A stretch of 64,000 nt of DNA, from contig NC_021184.1 in assembly GCF_000233715.2 (NCBI RefSeq), positions 2,380,001-2,444,000 on the forward strand, read 5' to 3'. The stretch comes from Desulfoscipio gibsoniae DSM 7213. GTDB taxonomy: Bacteria; Bacillota; Desulfotomaculia; Desulfotomaculales; Desulfallaceae. A program made the position numbers and the translations under genes. The notes under the pieces were generated by a model that did not search any database, was not told where the DNA came from, and worked only from the letters and a program-made list of their open reading frames with translations. This document shows positions 3,689-47,092 of this stretch, piece after piece. Position 1 is the stretch's first letter. Each line of letters opens with the position of its first letter.

Positions 3689-5020
3689 TTAAAATTTGGT
3701 AAGGTATTGACCTAGTTCCCAGGAGTGTACCTGTAGCCGATAGCTGTCCCACTCAATGCGCTTGGCTTCCAAAAAACGCTGCAATACGTGCGGACCAAGG
3801 GCATCCATAATTACCGGGTCGATGGACAGTTGATACAGGGCGTCCCTCAAACTTTCGGGGAGTATATCTATTCCCAGCTCATCACGCTCCTGCGGAGTGA
3901 GTTCGTATATATTGCGGTCACATGGCGTGGGCGGTTCAATCTTATTTTTTATCCCATCGAGTCCCGCCCTTAGGCATACCGCCAGAGCCAGGTAGGGATT
4001 GCAGGACGGGTCCGGGCTGCGTAACTCTATACGGGTGGATTGATCCCGTTTGGCTGGCACCCTGATCAACGGGCTACGGTTGCGGTAGGACCAAGCTATG
4101 TAAACAGGTGCCTCATAGCCTGAGACCAACCTTTTATAAGAATTTACTGTAGGATTGATAATAGCGGTAATGGCTGGAACATGCCGCATCAGACCCCCGA
4201 TATAATGCAGGCAATCCTGGCTGAGCTGGTTTGACGTACTGGGATCGTAAAAGGCATTAGCACCATCTTTCATCAATGACTGGTTTAAGTGCATGCCCGA
4301 TCCGGCAATGCCAAAAACAGGCTTGGGCATAAAAGTGGCATGTAGCCCGTGCCGCTGGGCAATGGTACGCACTACAAACTTAAAGGTCACCACTTTATCA
4401 GCGATGTCAAGGGCATCGGAGTATTTAAAGTCAATTTCGTGCTGTCCGGGTGCCACCTCATGGTGGGAAGCTTCAATTTCGAAACCCATTTGCTGCAGCG
4501 TAAGCACCATATCCCGGCGGGCGTTCTCGCCTAAATCCACCGGGGTCATATCGAAATATCCGGCACGGTCGTGGGTTACAGTGGTGGGTTTACCTTCCTC
4601 ATCAACGTGAAACAGAAAGAACTCAGCCTCGGGACCAACGTTCATGGAGTAGCCCATTTCTTCCGCTTCGGCGATGGCCCGGCGCAAAACATGGCGCGGG
4701 TCGCCTATGAAGGGGGTGCCGTCTGAATTATAGATATCGCAGATTAGCCTGGCCACCGCACCATCCCGAGGTTTCCAGGGAAATATAACGAATGTGGACG
4801 GGTCGGGGTGCAGGTACATATCGGATTCTTCTATGCGCACAAAACCTTCTATAGATGAACCATCAAACATAAGCTCATTATTTAGGGCCTTATCTAGTTG
4901 TTCTACGGTGATGGAAACGTTTTTAAGCACCCCAAAAATATCAGTAAACTGTAAGCGCACAAATTTAACACCGTAATCTCTAGCCATAGTACGCACGTCA
5001 TCACTGGTAAGTACAGGCAC
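3689..5020 (-). CDS. glnA: Glutamine synthetase type I
   Basis: A 443-residue GlnA that makes glutamine from glutamate, ammonia and ATP. The beta-grasp domain carries [20 protein letters not shown]. Catalytic-core motifs include [34 protein letters not shown] and [10 protein letters not shown]. Length and sequence fit the short Firmicute GSI-alpha class. The start is GTG at 5020 with AAGGAGAGG upstream. It lies just downstream of an ANTAR regulator on the same strand, with an ANTAR-type hairpin/terminator leader between them (5082-5162). A second, very similar copy is at 28.4 kb; the two may serve different ammonia levels or compensate for each other (inference). Confidence 0.97.
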
Positions 5021-5081: not shown

Positions 5082-5162
5082 AAAAAAAGCCCACACTGGC
5101 AGAATATGCATTTAACTGCCAGGTAGGCCTCATTGCCCTTATTTATGATACGCCATTGTACC
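5082..5162 (-). promoter_or_regulatory. ANTAR-type antitermination leader of glnA (two hexaloop hairpins plus terminator)
   Basis: Read on the minus strand, hairpin P1 (5162-5147) is a five-pair stem closing the hexaloop AATGGC. After eight bases, P2 (5138-5125) is a four-pair stem (one G-U) closing AATGAG. Both loops have A at position 1 and G at position 4, the known signature of ANTAR-protein targets. The right arm of P2 is the left end of an intrinsic terminator (5128-5089, about 13 bp with one bulge, then seven T's at 5088-5082). P2 and the terminator are therefore mutually exclusive. The ANTAR regulator is encoded immediately upstream. Confidence 0.85.
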
Positions 5163-5247: not shown

Positions 5248-5832
5248 TTATATGTTTAAAGAATGGGCCATTATCACCGCCTCAGCCACCAGCCGTATAT
5301 TCACCCTCTTATTCATGCTCTGGCGCTGCATGCGCTTAAAAGCTTCGGCTTCAGTCAGGCCCTGGGTTTCCATTAAAATACCTTTGGCCCGCTCCACAAT
5401 TTTTCTAGTCTCCAGTGTTTCCTGCAAATCCTTAATTTTTTGTTCAAGAGCGGTAATCTCCTGATAATTCGCCAGGGCCAACTCCACTGCCGGCAACAAT
5501 GATGCTTCCCCCACAGGCTTGATTAGTAATGCAAATACCCTGGCTTCTTTGGCCTTTTCCAGTATCCCGTGCTGGTCGGATGAACTAGTGGCAATCACCG
5601 GGGCCAGTTTATCCTCGTGTACTATTTTGGCCACCTGCAGCCCGTCCATACCACCGGGCAAGGCAGCATCTATAATTAGCAAATCGGGCTCCCGGCTGCG
5701 CACCAGTTTTATAGCGCTCAGACCATCACCGGCCTCTCCCACTACCCAGTGGCCATACTTTGTGAGCATAGACTTTACGTTCTTGCGCCATACACTATCA
5801 GCATCTACCAATATTACCCTGTTTTCACCCAT
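5248..5832 (-). CDS. ANTAR-domain response regulator (RNA-binding antiterminator)
   Basis: A 194-residue two-domain protein. A CheY-like receiver (residues 3-120) has acidic D10/D12, phospho-acceptor D55 and K105. A helical linker leads to an ANTAR domain (about 130-190) with the family core RKIVERAKGILMETQGLTEAEAFKRMQRQSM. ANTAR proteins bind paired hexaloop hairpins in nascent mRNA and stop terminator formation. A longer frame reaches 5922, but ATG 5832 has GGGGGCGGG upstream. It lies directly before glnA, and leaders of the right type precede four nitrogen loci in this window. No partner kinase is present here, so the input signal is unknown. Confidence 0.93.
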   Translation of the reverse strand: MGENRVILVDADSVWRKNVKSMLTKYGHWVVGEAGDGLSAIKLVRSREPDLLIIDAALPGGMDGLQVAKIVHEDKLAPVIATSSSDQHGILEKAKEARVFALLIKPVGEASLLPAVELALANYQEITALEQKIKDLQETLETRKIVERAKGILMETQGLTEAEAFKRMQRQSMNKRVNIRLVAEAVIMAHSLNI

Positions 5833-5855: not shown

Positions 5856-5986
5856 AAATAAAAATGCCCGCGCAAGTATTATTATAACCTGCACAGGGCA
5901 ATCGTTGCCATCTAATGGACACATCATTGTATCCGTTATATTATTTTAAACTATGTTAATTATATCAATATGTTTTGGAAAAGCAA
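5856..5986 (-). promoter_or_regulatory. Promoter and terminator-bearing leader of the ANTAR regulator gene
   Basis: On the minus strand a TTGCTT box (5986-5981), 16-base spacer and TATAAT (5964-5959) form a good sigma-A promoter, identical in hexamers and spacing to the one before the GOGAT operon. About 60 bases downstream is a terminator-like hairpin (5900-5865, 12 bp with a bulge) followed by a T-rich run (5864-5856), all before the start codon. A small hairpin at 5909-5897 overlaps its left arm. That hairpin contains AACGAT, but the loop is not a clean hexaloop. Autoregulation is possible, not shown. Confidence 0.55.
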
Positions 5987-18711: not shown

Positions 18712-18786
18712 GTAGATGCAACAGCGCATCTACCTTTTACGGCAATGTCGCCCGCCTTTTTTGGTGGGCGACATTTTTATTTTTTC
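18712..18786 (+). promoter_or_regulatory. ANTAR-type antitermination leader of asnB
   Basis: A strong eight-pair hairpin (18712-18733, loop AACAGC) is followed by a three-pair stem (18741-18752) closing the hexaloop AATGTC, which has A1 and G4. The second hairpin overlaps the left arm of an intrinsic terminator (18744-18756 paired with 18763-18775, 13 bp, then a T-rich run). Layout and terminator overlap match the glnA leaders. The first loop has A rather than G at position 4, so the match is imperfect. The asnB start codon is about 80 bases downstream. Confidence 0.65.
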
Positions 18787-18858: not shown

Positions 18859-20703
18859 ATGTGCGGAATTACAGGCTGGATAGACTGGAATGATGATCTA
18901 ACCAGGCAGCGCCCCACACTGGAAGCTATGAATGAAAATCAATTCCACCGCGGACCCGATGCAGGCGGCACATGGATTTCAACACATGTTGCCCTGGGCC
19001 ATCGCCGGCTGGCTGTGGTTGACCCAACGGGCGGCGGGCAGCCCATGCTTCGCCGGCGAGGAGATTATATATATGTAATGGTATATAATGGTGAGCTGTA
19101 CAATACCCCGGAACTGAGGAGGGAATTGGTGACCCGTGGGTACACTTTCAGCGGGCACTCGGACACCGAAGTGCTGCTGTTATCATATATTGAGTGGGGC
19201 GAGGATTGCTTGCAACGGCTAAACGGCATCTACGCCCTGGCCATTTGGAGCGAGCGAGATCAGAGCTTGTTTATGGCACGGGATCGGCTGGGCGTAAAAC
19301 CACTATTTTATGCCCGGCGGGGGAGTGCACTGTTTTTTGGCTCTGAGTTAAAATCATTGTTAGCCCACCCGGCAATACAGCCCGAACTGGATGCCGACGG
19401 TCTGACGGAAGTGTTAATCATGGGTCCGGGTCGCACGCCCGGACACGGTGTATTCCGTAACGTGGCTGAGCTAAAACCCGGGTACTATCTAGTGTACAAC
19501 CGCAGCGGCCTGCGCATACAACGCTACTGGCAACTGGAAAGTAGACCTCACGAAGACGACCTGAACACAACCGCCGCTAAAGTGCGAAAACTTTTCCACG
19601 ATGCCGTGACACGCCAGCTAGTGGCAGATGTGCCCGTTTGCACTTTATTATCGGGAGGTTTGGACTCCAGCGCCATTACTGCGGTAGCCGCAGAGGCCTG
19701 GCGACAAGCCGGTGCTAAACCGTTGCAAACATGGTCTGTTGATTTTTTTGACAATGAACGCTATTTTGTGCCCGATCTGTTCCAACCCAATACTGATGCC
19801 CATTGGGTGCAGAGAGTCTCGGAAAGCTTGGGGACCGATCACCATACGGTTATCATTGACACTCCTGAACTGGTAGATGCACTGGCAGCCGCCGTGCGGG
19901 CCCGGGATTTGCCTGGCATGGCCGACGTAGATGCCTCGCTGTACCTTTTCTCCCGGGCGATTAAACAATCGGCTACCGTCGCCCTGTCGGGAGAGTGCGC
20001 TGACGAAATATTTGGCGGCTATCCCTGGTTTCACAGGCCCCAGGCCGCGGCTGAAGGCACATTTCCCTGGCTGCGGGGGCTTGCTGAGCGTATGCATATG
20101 TTGGCCCCCGAAGTAATCGATTTGCTTCGACCCGTAGAGTACGTTAACCGGCGATACCAGGAAACGCTTGCGGAAGTGCCCCGTCTACCGGGAGAGAAGA
20201 CCGGGGAGGCACGGCTGCGGGAACTGATGTACCTAACCATAAACTGGTTTAAGGCCACCCTGTTGGATCGCAAGGACCGCATGAGCATGGCCGTGGGTCT
20301 TGAAGTACGTGTACCTTTCTGTGACCACCGCCTGGTGGAATACGCCTGGAACATACCCGGTTCCATGAAAAACTACGGGGGGAAGGAAAAAGGCATACTG
20401 CGCCGAGCGCTTACCGACTTATTGCCTGAGGAAGTACTTAGCCGGCGTAAAAGTCCTTACCCCAAGTCTCATCACCCGGCTTACCTGAAGACAGTGCGAA
20501 AAATAGTTACAGAGATTCTAGCAGATTCTTCATCACCACTGTTGCCCCTGATTAACCGAAATAACGTGCGCCGCATGATCCAATCAAACGCAATGTATTT
20601 TAACAAGCCATTTTATGGCCAGCTAATGACCGATGCCCAGTATCTAGCTTATTTAATCCAGGTGGACACCTGGCTGAGGGAATACAACGTAATAATTCGC
20701 TGA
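18859..20703 (+). CDS. asnB: Asparagine synthase, glutamine-hydrolysing
   Basis: A 614-residue AsnB. The N-terminal class II amidotransferase begins MCGITGWID, with Cys2 as nucleophile after Met removal, and continues with NQFHRGPDAGG, GHRRLAVVD and YNGELYN. The synthetase domain has the ATP pyrophosphatase motif LLSGGLDSSAI near residue 265 and SGECADEIFGGYPWF. It transfers glutamine amide nitrogen to aspartate through an aspartyl-AMP. GGGAGGG precedes the ATG. The upstream terminator with ANTAR-like hairpins links its expression to the nitrogen genes around it. Confidence 0.95.
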   Translation: MCGITGWIDWNDDLTRQRPTLEAMNENQFHRGPDAGGTWISTHVALGHRRLAVVDPTGGGQPMLRRRGDYIYVMVYNGELYNTPELRRELVTRGYTFSGHSDTEVLLLSYIEWGEDCLQRLNGIYALAIWSERDQSLFMARDRLGVKPLFYARRGSALFFGSELKSLLAHPAIQPELDADGLTEVLIMGPGRTPGHGVFRNVAELKPGYYLVYNRSGLRIQRYWQLESRPHEDDLNTTAAKVRKLFHDAVTRQLVADVPVCTLLSGGLDSSAITAVAAEAWRQAGAKPLQTWSVDFFDNERYFVPDLFQPNTDAHWVQRVSESLGTDHHTVIIDTPELVDALAAAVRARDLPGMADVDASLYLFSRAIKQSATVALSGECADEIFGGYPWFHRPQAAAEGTFPWLRGLAERMHMLAPEVIDLLRPVEYVNRRYQETLAEVPRLPGEKTGEARLRELMYLTINWFKATLLDRKDRMSMAVGLEVRVPFCDHRLVEYAWNIPGSMKNYGGKEKGILRRALTDLLPEEVLSRRKSPYPKSHHPAYLKTVRKIVTEILADSSSPLLPLINRNNVRRMIQSNAMYFNKPFYGQLMTDAQYLAYLIQVDTWLREYNVIIR

Positions 20704-27824: not shown

Positions 27825-27971
27825 TTATGCAAAACGCCAACCCCGGGCAATAGGCATGCGGCGTTCCGGTCCGAAAGCCCGGGAGGTCACCCGCAAACCA
27901 GGCGAAGCTTGCTGTCGTTTATATTCAGCAGTGTCCACCCGGCGGACTATATCCAGCACCAGATTCCTACC
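27825..27971 (-). pseudogene. Remnant of the C-terminus of glutamine-dependent NAD+ synthetase (nadE)
   Basis: The minus-strand frame ending at 27825 reads LVLDIVRRVDTAEYKRQQASPGLRVTSRAFGPERRMPIARGWR. This is the invariant C-terminal tail of NadE (VRRVDxxEYKRRQAPPGLKVTSRAFGxxRRxPI). Nothing of the synthetase or amidase domains is present upstream, where a minus-strand terminator hairpin (28011-28040) and then the + strand glnA leader follow. The tail keeps an intact frame, suggesting recent truncation. Confidence 0.8.
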
Positions 27972-27999
27972 ATGCCTCATAGCCATATACTTATTACCC

Positions 28000-28040
28000 A
28001 AAATAAAAATGCCCGGCATTCCACGAAAGAAACGCCGGGC
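28000..28040 (-). terminator. Minus-strand intrinsic terminator upstream of the nadE remnant
   Basis: GCCCGGC (28011-28017) pairs with GCCGGGC (28034-28040), and on the minus strand the right arm is followed by a T-rich run (28010-28000). No gene to the right uses the minus strand, so it seems to be a relic of rearrangement or insulation against read-through from the glnA region. Confidence 0.6.
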
Positions 28041-28154
28041 GTCCTTGCCCCCTGCAGGTCCTCAGTAACCTTACGCGTTTATTTATATAAGATTATACAA
28101 CAAAGTGATATAATTTGCGTAATGTTAGTTATAAAAATAATTCAACAAAGGTTA

Positions 28155-28183
28155 TTGCAATTTAAAAACAATTCCTTTATAAT
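28155..28183 (+). promoter_or_regulatory. Promoter of the second glutamine synthetase gene
   Basis: TTGCAA (28155-28160), a 17-base spacer and TATAAT (28178-28183). The expected start near 28190 puts both ANTAR-type modules (28207-28363) inside the transcript. Confidence 0.75.
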
Positions 28184-28206
28184 GACATTATTCAATTAAA
28201 TATTAC

Positions 28207-28282
28207 TTAATACAAAGGTGTATTAATAATTTGGCAATGATGCCCACGAACAGTTTATACAACTTGTTCGTGGGCTTTTATA
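28207..28282 (+). promoter_or_regulatory. glnA2 leader, ANTAR-type module 1
   Basis: A perfect seven-pair stem (28207-28213/28220-28226) closes hexaloop AAAGGT. A GGC/GCC stem (28233-28244) then closes AATGAT. Both loops have A1 and G4. The right arm of the second stem begins an 11-bp terminator (28242-28252 with 28265-28275) followed by a T-rich tail. Confidence 0.85.
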
Positions 28283-28287
28283 TTTTA

Positions 28288-28363
28288 GCCGTGCAATGGT
28301 GTGCGGTAACCCGGCAAAGAGGCCGGCACAAGGTTTGTTAGATCAGACCTTGTGCCGGCTTTT
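28288..28363 (+). promoter_or_regulatory. glnA2 leader, ANTAR-type module 2
   Basis: A six-pair stem with two G-U pairs (28289-28294/28301-28306) closes hexaloop AATGGT. Four bases later a five-pair stem (28311-28326) closes AAAGAG. Both loops have A1 and G4. The right arm of the second stem is the start of a 16-bp terminator (28322-28337 with 28344-28359) plus four T's. The arrangement repeats module 1 directly, so glnA2 lies behind two ANTAR-controllable terminators in series. Confidence 0.88.
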
Positions 28364-28393
28364 AATATGTAACAAGGTAATTATTTAACTAAT

Positions 28394-29734
28394 TTGAAAG
28401 GTGGCTCGGTCATGGATAAAAGAGAAGTTATTGCTGAAGCGAGGGAAAAGGGAGTTAAGTTTATTCGTTTGCAGTTCACTGATCTGCTGGGGGTAATGAA
28501 AAACGTAGCTATTACTATTGATCAACTGGAAAAAGCTTTGGATGGAGAATTAATGTTTGACGGATCATCCATATATGGTTTCACCAGGATAGAAGAATCC
28601 GATATGTACCTGCGTCCTGACCCAAGCACCTTCGTGGTATTTCCCTGGCGACCCAGAGAAGGCGGAGTGGCCCGGTTGATGTGTGATATTTATAATCCCG
28701 ATGGTACTCCATTCGACGGCTGCCCCAGAGTGATCTTAAAGCGCCAATTGGCAAGGGCCGCAGAACTTGGCTATTCTATGCAGGTGGGCCCGGAGCTTGA
28801 GTTTTTCCTGTTCTGTGTGGATGATAATAACGTACCCACTCTAAAGACCCACGACAACGCTGGTTATTTCGATCTCTCCCCAGTAGATCTTGGGGAGCAA
28901 GCCCGTAGGGATGTAGTACTAACCCTGGAGCAAATGGGATTTGAGATTGAAGCCTCTCACCACGAGGTGGCCCCGGGCCAGCATGAAATCGACTTTAAAT
29001 ATTCAGATGCCCTTGACACCGCTGATAAAATCGTTACTTTTAAATTTGTGGTTCGAACTATTGCCCAACGGCACGGCCTGCATGCCACGTTTATGCCAAA
29101 ACCTGTATATGGCATCAATGGCAGCGGCATGCACACCAACCAGTCTTTGTTCAAAGGGAATATCAACGCCTTTTATGACGAAAATAGCCCTTTGCAATTA
29201 AGCAAGGAGGCCTATTACTATATAGGCGGTTTATTAAAACATGCCCGGGCTCTGGCCGCTATAACCAACCCCACGGTGAATTCCTACAAGCGCCTGGTGC
29301 CGGGTTATGAAGCGCCGGTGTACCTTGCCTGGAGCGGCCGCAACCGCAGTCCTCTGATTCGCATCCCCGCCAAGCGTGGACAGAGCACCAGAGTTGAGCT
29401 GCGCAACCCGGACCCATCTTGCAACCCCTACCTGTCACTGGCAGGATGCCTGGCAGCTGGTCTGGATGGAATCGTCAACCAAATAGATCCGCCGCCGGCT
29501 TGTGACCGGAATATCTACCAGATGACAAGTACAGAACTGGATGAACTGGGCATTAAGTCATTGCCCGGCAGCTTACCGGAAGCATATGCTGAATTAAGCC
29601 GAGATGAGGTTATTAGGGATGCACTGGGTGAGCATATTTATGAAAAACTATCTGAAGCAAAGGCCAAAGAATGGGAAAGTTTTTCTTTGCAAGTACACCA
29701 GTGGGAAATAGACCGTTACCTGACTTTGTTTTAA
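28394..29734 (+). CDS. glnA: Glutamine synthetase type I, second copy
   Basis: A 446-residue GSI closely similar along its whole length to the enzyme at 3.7-5.0 kb. It has [59 protein letters not shown] and [31 protein letters not shown]. The GTG-preceded frame can start at 28394 (ATG) or at ATG 28412, where GGTGGCTCGGTC precedes; the latter gives [17 protein letters not shown], aligning with other GlnA N-termini, so it is the likelier start. It makes glutamine. Expression is gated by two consecutive ANTAR-type modules and it has its own terminator. Confidence 0.96.
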
Positions 29735-40884: not shown

Positions 40885-40969
40885 ATCTTTTACAATACCG
40901 TAATAAAAGCACTTTGATACGGCTGCAAAGGTATCCACACCAACCCTCTCCGTGGGAGGTTAACTATGT

Positions 40970-41145
40970 GTGTAACCCGGGTAGGTCTCCTGACTTATGG
41001 TTCACCGCCCGCCTTTAGCCTTCCCGGTTACGCCGGTGGCAATTAAAAGGAGGCTCGCCATTTACAGTGGCCGGACCGTCCAGGACTTTCACCTGGTTCC
41101 CTATTATCCCCATGGCACCTGGTTTTTGGTGTGTTTGGGGCACCC
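40970..41145 (-). promoter_or_regulatory. Cobalamin (adenosylcobalamin) riboswitch
   Basis: The minus strand shows the conserved cobalamin-riboswitch blocks in order: AATAGGGAACCAGGTGAAAG near the 5' part, CGGTCCGGCCACTGTAAATGG, then GGGAAGGC and the B12-box region AAGTCAGGAGACCTACC (41000-40982). It precedes cobK-cbiMNQO and should reduce their expression when cobalamin is plentiful. The first terminator downstream ends at 40848. Confidence 0.93.
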
Positions 41146-41272
41146 GAGTAATAAACTTACTATTTGATTATATTATCAATACTAGCACATTTATGTTATA
41201 TTGTCCATAGATTGCAAGGTGATTAAGTAGCCAACCACCACAACCGGCTAACCGACCACTTTTGCCCAGCGG

Positions 41273-46466: not shown

Positions 46467-46752
46467 AAATTAAAACATCCCGCCCCACTAAGGGACGGGA
46501 TGTAATGGCCTCGCGGTACCACCCTATTTACCCCGGATATTGATCCGAAGTCACTCTTTCAAGGTACGGGAAAAAAACTTTTTCCGATACCCCCTTCCTT
46601 TTAACGGCGGAAGTCTCCGGCCCGGCCTACTAGACTCTATGAGCATTCAGCCTGCAGTTCCGGGGTGAACTTCAATTTAACCGTTCTCACCAGGCTCCCA
46701 CCGCCCCTGGTTCGCTGAGGAGACTAATTAAATCTACTTTACCCCTTCATGA
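46467..46752 (-). promoter_or_regulatory. T-box riboswitch leader
   Basis: On the minus strand a Stem I-like region (46752 onward, with GGTGGGAGCC and TGAGAAC segments) is followed by the invariant T-box sequence AGGGTGGTACCGCG (46525-46512). A terminator then follows (46503-46475, ACATCCCGTCCC pairing with a GGGGCGGGATGT arm) with a T-rich tail. The bases after GAA in Stem I include CTC followed by A, so a leucine specifier is possible but not secure. The riboswitch senses uncharged tRNA. Confidence 0.92.
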
Positions 46753-47092
46753 CATTTATTTACTATCTACTTAAAAACAACTTTAACAATTATCAACTAA
46801 TTTGTCAACCTTTTTTATTACTTAAAAATAAACTATTCTGTTATTTTCTTCTAAGCCCTAATTTACCTTCATTTGGTTTTTAAGTTATAAAGTTGGGGTT
46901 TCCTCTCAAGGAGCGGTTGAAACGGTAAGCTGAAGATTCGGCTTACTGGTATTAGACAATTTTTCTGACACAGAGCAAAGCAATGAATACGGAAAAATAG
47001 CGGAATATTTAGTAACCCAGAGTAAGAATCAACCGGGCCTATCTCCCCGGTTAACCTGGTGATTATACTAGGGAAAGCAGGATGGAGAGGAG
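46753..47092. other. AT-rich intergenic space upstream of the T-box
   Basis: No gene is seen. The T-box promoter should lie in the AT-rich part near 46760-46860. A short CCGGG/CCCGG pairing occurs at 47035-47060. Nothing else could be supported. Confidence 0.35.

Follow-up and report, generated by a model that had tools for sequence, protein, structure and literature searches.

Two serial ANTAR modules before a glutamine synthetase gene of Desulfoscipio gibsoniae: a probable two-stage transcription attenuator

Does one leader carry two ANTAR antitermination modules in series, and what would the second module add to the first? We asked this of the leader of glnA2, a glutamine synthetase gene of Desulfoscipio gibsoniae DSM 7213 that lies in the stretch of 64,000 nucleotides analysed here, called the window throughout. 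In the EutV/EutW system of the Enterococcus faecalis eut locus, one dual-hairpin motif is described for each terminator, before four eut genes (PMC3369931). The active EutV dimer is indicated to bind the hexaloops of the motif and to hold its second hairpin, P2, against the terminator (PMC3369931, PMC8934654). The NasR and AmiR leaders are also described with one unit per leader (PMC3369936). The glnA2 leader shares with eut the dual hairpins, the A1/G4 hexaloops, the overlap between P2 and the terminator and a response-regulator ANTAR protein (PMC3369931); with the NasR and AmiR leaders it would share ANTAR antitermination of nitrogen genes by means of P1, P2 and a terminator (PMC3369936). 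Unlike all of these, which have one unit per terminator or leader as described, it holds two units.

A preliminary description of this DNA had stated that known ANTAR leaders contain one unit. This agrees with the accounts of eut, nas and ami (PMC3369931, PMC3369936), but not with the at least 13 ANTAR elements in six transcription units reported for Desulfotomaculum acetoxidans (Ramesh 2012), nor with serial modules that we found in another genome, G039 (below). The D. acetoxidans numbers put several elements per unit on record, although intergenic elements within operons could give the same count. That regulon resembles ours in coming from Desulfotomaculum, in its nitrogen genes and in having several elements per unit; the relevant section of Ramesh 2012, which also names glutamate synthase genes of D. 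reducens and nif units of Pelobacter, does not discuss serial arrangement, its conservation or its consequences, which are our subject here. In the sections of the literature that we read, serial ANTAR modules in one leader are not discussed.

Within 27900-28700 we located the elements of the leader by folding, pattern scans and reading by eye (Table 1). Each of the two units is built as an ANTAR dual hairpin, with two hexaloop hairpins of at least 3 bp, the second of which overlaps an intrinsic terminator. All four hexaloops of the leader have A1 and G4. The 3' arm of P2 is the start of T1 (GCC, 28242-28244) and the 3' arm of P2' is the start of T2 (GCCGG). On these points the preliminary description, which had proposed two tandem modules with A1/G4 loops and an arm shared between each second hairpin and its terminator, was accurate. 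The spacing from loop to loop is 22 nt in module 1, 21 nt in module 2 and 23 nt in the single module before glnA1, and 59 nt separate the P2 loop from the P1' loop. P2 and P2' have predicted energies of -3.5 and -9.1 kcal/mol; both terminators are predicted to be far more stable, so termination should be the default. The tail of T1 reads TTTTATATTTT and that of T2 TTTTAATATG, a short U-tract. T2 had been called the stronger terminator: this is right for the predicted stability of the stem, but its U-tract is the poorer one. The promoter scan performs at chance level in the window (2 promoter-like sites versus 1.9 expected) and by itself proves nothing; several relatives have a promoter-like element 5' of module 1 by eye.

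Table 1. Features of the glnA2 leader and of the ANTAR regulon in D. gibsoniae (window positions, except for nifH)
Feature	Position	Strand	Basis and details
Sigma-70-like promoter TTGCAA-17-TATAAT	28155-28183	+	scan, 10/12 bases
Module 1, P1 hairpin	28207-28226	+	7 bp; hexaloop AAAGGT 28214-28219
Module 1, P2 antiterminator hairpin	28233-28244	+	3 bp; hexaloop AATGAT 28236-28241
Terminator T1 with U-rich tail	28242-28286	+	stem 28242-28275, predicted -20.1 kcal/mol
Module 2, P1' hairpin	28288-28307	+	7 bp with G-U pairs; hexaloop AATGGT 28295-28300
Module 2, P2' antiterminator hairpin	28311-28326	+	5 bp; hexaloop AAAGAG 28316-28321
Terminator T2 with tail	28322-28366	+	stem 28322-28359, predicted -30.9 kcal/mol
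RBS-like stretch of glnA2, GAAAGGTGG	28396-28404	+	
glnA2, type I glutamate-ammonia ligase	28412-29734	+	NCBIfam, over cut-off; ATG at 28412
REC-ANTAR response regulator	5248-5832	-	Pfam PF00072 and PF03861, over cut-off
Single ANTAR module, ANTAR gene's own leader	5896-5933	-	R1 about 27.2-27.3 bits; R3 24.0 bits, E 0.0033
Single ANTAR module before glnA1	5125-5162	-	descriptor and R1
glnA1	3689-5020		
Doubtful ANTAR module with terminator	18715-18753	+	R1 19.6 bits; R3 14.7 bits, E 0.47
nifH leader, ANTAR modules in series, with terminators (L104, L134)	C1:2461346-2461560	-	

Could such hairpins arise by chance in an AT-rich leader? We scored them with three covariance models. R1 was trained on 30 modules from glnA leaders only, the window modules included, so its scores for these prove little. 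R2 was trained on 55 modules, including those of the window and many from nifH leaders, whose R2 scores therefore hold partly by construction. R3 is a hold-out model of 44 modules, trained without the glnA2-leader modules of the window and of the loci L002-L011 from relatives and without the module in the ANTAR gene's own leader, which is outside the training of R1 too; the glnA1 module belongs to all three training sets. In a search of 266,995 bases (the window and L002-L011), R3 matched module 1 with 32.9 bits (E 2.7e-5, 28209-28245) and module 2 with 24.4 bits (E 0.0026, 28290-28325). It recovered module 2 of L002, L006 and L007 (24.6, 24.2 and 23.1 bits), gave that of L005 only 15.1 bits (E 0.39) and, in the same search, did not find module 2 of L003, L004 and L011.

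A structure descriptor run over the two strands of the window gave four matches, namely both units, the glnA1 module and a doubtful site at 28066 on the minus strand; its controls, one strand each, gave 0 matches (reversed) and 1 match (complemented). It misses the module in the ANTAR gene's own leader, and a simple terminator scan calls neither T1 nor T2. At the gathering threshold Rfam reports no ANTAR family in the whole window, and at E up to 5 it gives only sub-threshold, unrelated names for 28100-28420 (best ncr1175, E 0.0082). The covariance-model search suggested by the preliminary description is thus positive for both modules with our own R3, but not with any Rfam family at threshold. 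Elsewhere in the window Rfam recognises a T-box leader (46488-46759, minus strand) and a cobalamin riboswitch (40963-41162, minus strand). A weak, divergent ANTAR-like unit with a terminator adjoins the glnA2 promoter at 28011-28071 on the minus strand (R1 14.2 bits, E 0.08); it may be a chance match.

The motif is short, and neither the promoter scan nor the terminator scan does better than chance. Among relatives in which we found no ANTAR gene (n = 4), R1 still matches three times in G029 and once in G051, which shows that the specificity of the models is incomplete. The hold-out E-values of R3 argue against a chance origin of the glnA2 modules, as do the conservation and covariation of the leader and the R1 matches at unseen sites before nitrogen genes, both described below. 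We therefore consider chance hairpins extremely improbable.

An ANTAR attenuator calls for an ANTAR protein. A PF03861 search of the genome (4,855,529 bases) found one ANTAR gene, which lies in the window (Table 1). The best solved relatives of its product are 1S8N (149.6 bits) and 6WSH (115 bits), which we take to be Rv1626 and EutV, and its phosphoacceptor Asp aligns with that of both. At the phosphorylation-site positions, which we assume to follow those of CheY, one residue of the acidic pair in the receiver is Ala; the congeners read have Ala or Ser. Judged by its sequence, the receiver may differ from those that are phosphorylated in the usual way.

R1 pointed to a regulon. Its top eight sites in the genome (150 of 1951 candidates were scored) are three training modules and five unseen ones: before P-II/amt (31.7 bits), the ANTAR gene (about 27.3), a nifV-like gene (27.2) and nifH (24.1 and 22.5); the next site has 17.7 bits. 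R2 separates the eight more sharply (each above 29 bits), having been trained on all of them. Gene names are by NCBIfam, with nifH, amt and glnA over their cut-offs and P-II and the nifV-like gene below theirs. The nifH leader has two modules by R1 and a third, with a terminator, by descriptor and eye; R1 misses this third module in L134, and R2, trained on it, gives it 21.3 bits. With the leader of the ANTAR gene itself counted, the genome has six such leaders and nine modules. Probable targets of the one ANTAR protein are its own gene, glnA1 and P-II/amt (one module each), glnA2 (two), the nifV-like gene (one) and nifH. A doubtful module precedes a gene for asparagine synthase (glutamine-hydrolysing; 18859-20703), and its P1 loop, AACAGC, lacks G4.

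Is the double layout before glnA2 kept in relatives? In an alignment of seven glnA2 leaders (the window and L002-L007, of which L003 and L004 are near-identical), with structures taken from the window row and thereby favoured, the antiterminator structure is paired in 93.2% of cells and the terminators in 89.6%. Of the terminator pairs, 7/30 changed on both sides (3/14 in T1, 4/16 in T2). P1' is paired in 83.3% of cells, and four of its six tested pairs changed on both sides, a count that leaves out the outermost pair, split by a gap. In the descriptor scan of glnA leaders some picks of P1 were spurious or doubtful (for example ACCGCG in L003/L004), so the leaders were read by eye and with the models as well. 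The search took in 17 genomes, six of them at order level and none of them the family members G011-G015; the by-eye count covers our own genome together with ten members of the family (G000-G010). By eye, two terminators can be seen in 11/11 of these glnA2 leaders, and a hexaloop with G4 overlaps each of them; an automatic rule for the same arrangement finds it in 9/11; T1 of G001 and both terminator tails of G008 look weak. P1, P2 and P2' each have G4 in every one of the 11 leaders by eye, and position 1 is A in 11 (P1), 8 (P2) and 6 (P2') of them and G in the rest. The near-fixed G4 fits the base-specific contact of EutV at G4 described in PMC8934654. Of the proposed conservation of A1/G4 loops, then, G4 holds and A1 gives way to A or G. 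In the glnA2 and nifH leaders of relatives taken together, position 1 is likewise A or G and G4 almost fixed.

Farther away the layout fades. L008 has a degraded second unit by eye, and the more distant L009 and L010 have one unit each before glnA2. Among 79 glnA loci, two R2 matches within 300 nt 5' of glnA (E up to 0.2) were found only in the window, L002, L006, L007 and L061, where the two lie 231 nt apart, and single modules before glnA are far commoner. The tandem arrangement that the preliminary description proposed to look for before the glnA genes of relatives thus recurs in the family, but L009 and L010 depart from it: the double layout is mainly a close-family trait and not general to glnA leaders.

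Two other readings of the leader concern its second unit. Only module 1 might be regulated; the second unit would then be a duplicate in decay, or simply a terminator that reduces output. In 10/11 genomes module 2 has a lower R3 score than module 1, and in G008, one of these, it has no match; the paired test gives p 0.002 (p 0.008 without G002 and G008), ignoring kinship and setting the missing module of G008 to 0. The poor U-tract of T2 and the single units of L009 and L010 point the same way. Yet the 5' arm and G4 loop of P2' are kept in 11/11 leaders by eye although both lie outside T2, P1' shows compensatory changes, and R3 matches module 2 in the window, L002, L006 and L007. We find it quite unlikely that module 1 acts alone.

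Alternatively, an ANTAR dimer loaded at module 1 could be passed on, so that module 2 needs P2' alone; in several species module 2 would then be a hemi-module. For EutV, successive binding is proposed, with one dimer cycling from P1 on to P2, and EutV also binds single hexaloops (PMC8934654). If a dimer went on to P2', P1' would not be needed, and its weaker conservation would agree with this. By eye, P1' is canonical in five leaders (G000, G004, G006, G007 and G009), imperfect in G010, ambiguous in G002 and G005 and unseen in G001, G003 and G008, whereas P2' is kept in all; by rule, it is absent in G001, G003, G008 and G010. In the glnA2 leader of a Soudan MAG (L011 9795-9920), a full module is followed, by eye, by a second unit that has P2 and a terminator but lacks P1. 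On the other side, P1' is intact in the window, and a linker longer by 20 nt abolished EutV antitermination in vitro (PMC8934654), while 59 nt separate the P2 and P1' loops here. Counted by position, P1 and P1' are present in 9/11 and 7/11 leaders (p 0.64), which is no statistically clear loss of P1'; the test is unclean, as the rule overlooked module 1 of G001 and G008 and accepted doubtful P1' hairpins in G002 and G005. We hold such a hand-off to be unlikely.

Serial modules are not confined to glnA2. We examined the nifH leaders of 30 genomes (the best 30 of 55 matches; L157 has only about 150 bases of leader) with R2, because our automatic unit counter missed short nifH terminators as well as module 1 of L011. 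At E up to 0.5, R2 finds three modules in 8 leaders, two in 12, one in 6 and none in 4; R1, which had no nifH training, finds at least two in 12/30 at the same cut-off. Three modules precede nifH in Desulfoscipio geothermicus DSM 3669 (L005 16184-16398). An ANTAR regulator of nif genes has reportedly been studied in Geobacter. In ten genomes picked from earlier matches, the 95 R2 matches join into 81 sites (within 300 nt), and 11 of these sites, spread over 8 of the genomes, are multiple. R3 finds serial pairs before amt-like genes of G012 (L220 2094-2204; 27.8 and 21.3 bits) and G039 (L224 10909-11132; 30.8 and 21.9 bits) and before a nifV-like gene of G039 (L222 1904-2211; 26.0 and 26.0 bits), these gene names coming from reading of the translations only. 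Between the two matches of L222, a hemi-module with its own terminator is visible by eye.

Taken together, the hold-out R3 matches, the anatomy and the conservation in close relatives, supported by the R1 matches at unseen nitrogen-gene leaders, make it very probable that ANTAR attenuation of transcription in the glnA2 leader proceeds in two stages. RNA synthesis would start 5' of P1. When no ANTAR protein is active, T1 would form, and polymerase that leaks past it would then meet T2. The active ANTAR protein would bind the P1 and P2 hexaloops and hold P2, blocking T1, and binding at P1' and P2' would likewise be needed to block T2. Two antitermination events per transcript follow if both predicted terminators work, and overall readthrough would be approximately the product of the two stages. 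In this scheme we infer the start site, binding, termination, antitermination, the independence of the stages and the nitrogen-related signal.

What kind of switch would two stages make? The preliminary description had envisaged a steep or AND-like one. In a two-input AND gate each module would answer a different regulator. The loop and stem letters of the two modules do differ, and many relatives have two or three ANTAR genes; our genome and its six congeners G001-G006 have one each, yet they show the two-terminator leader by eye. A two-input gate is accordingly very improbable, and since we found one ANTAR gene both units probably read one input.

Steepness was addressed with a model of independent hyperbolic gates, for each of which we assumed that readthrough ranges from 0.1 to 0.8. 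One, two and three gates give modelled ranges of 8-, 64- and 512-fold, half-points of 1.0, 2.0 and 3.3 and Hill coefficients of 1.0, 1.12 and 1.21; four parameter sets tried for two gates give Hill coefficients of 1.08-1.19. By this arithmetic, serial gates would square the leak and move the threshold while changing steepness little. Cooperative dimer binding, if present, would make the curves steeper for any number of gates. With one gene, one input and a two-gate Hill coefficient of about 1.1-1.2, the case for a steep or AND-like switch is weak, and we set the steep reading aside on these assumed numbers. Tandem riboswitches of the same class, described as pseudo-cooperative and more digital (PMC9481103), and a triple-tandem c-di-GMP riboswitch (PMC4759541) repeat like elements in one leader, as glnA2 does. 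Riboswitches sense their ligand directly, whereas each stage of glnA2 would use a protein antiterminator.

We tentatively suggest that the number of modules might act as a dial. With one ANTAR protein, the serial count would determine both how far each gene is shut off and at which threshold it is induced, and rising activity would switch on the regulator and glnA1 (one module), then glnA2 (two) and then nifH (three); downstream modules may be hemi-modules fed by a dimer loaded upstream. This idea is possible, but we hold it with less confidence than its opposite.

Serial ANTAR modules in one leader are a variant on known ANTAR attenuators, for which several modules per transcription unit were already implied. 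Attenuators of this kind, controlled by a protein and placed in series, would rank genes under one regulator while promoters and binding sites stay unchanged. The natural full-full, full-hemi and triple arrangements are test material for the successive-binding model of ANTAR antitermination, and they suggest a concrete way in which these anaerobes might regulate nitrogenase. With gates in series, expensive nitrogen genes may stay firmly shut down until nitrogen runs short.
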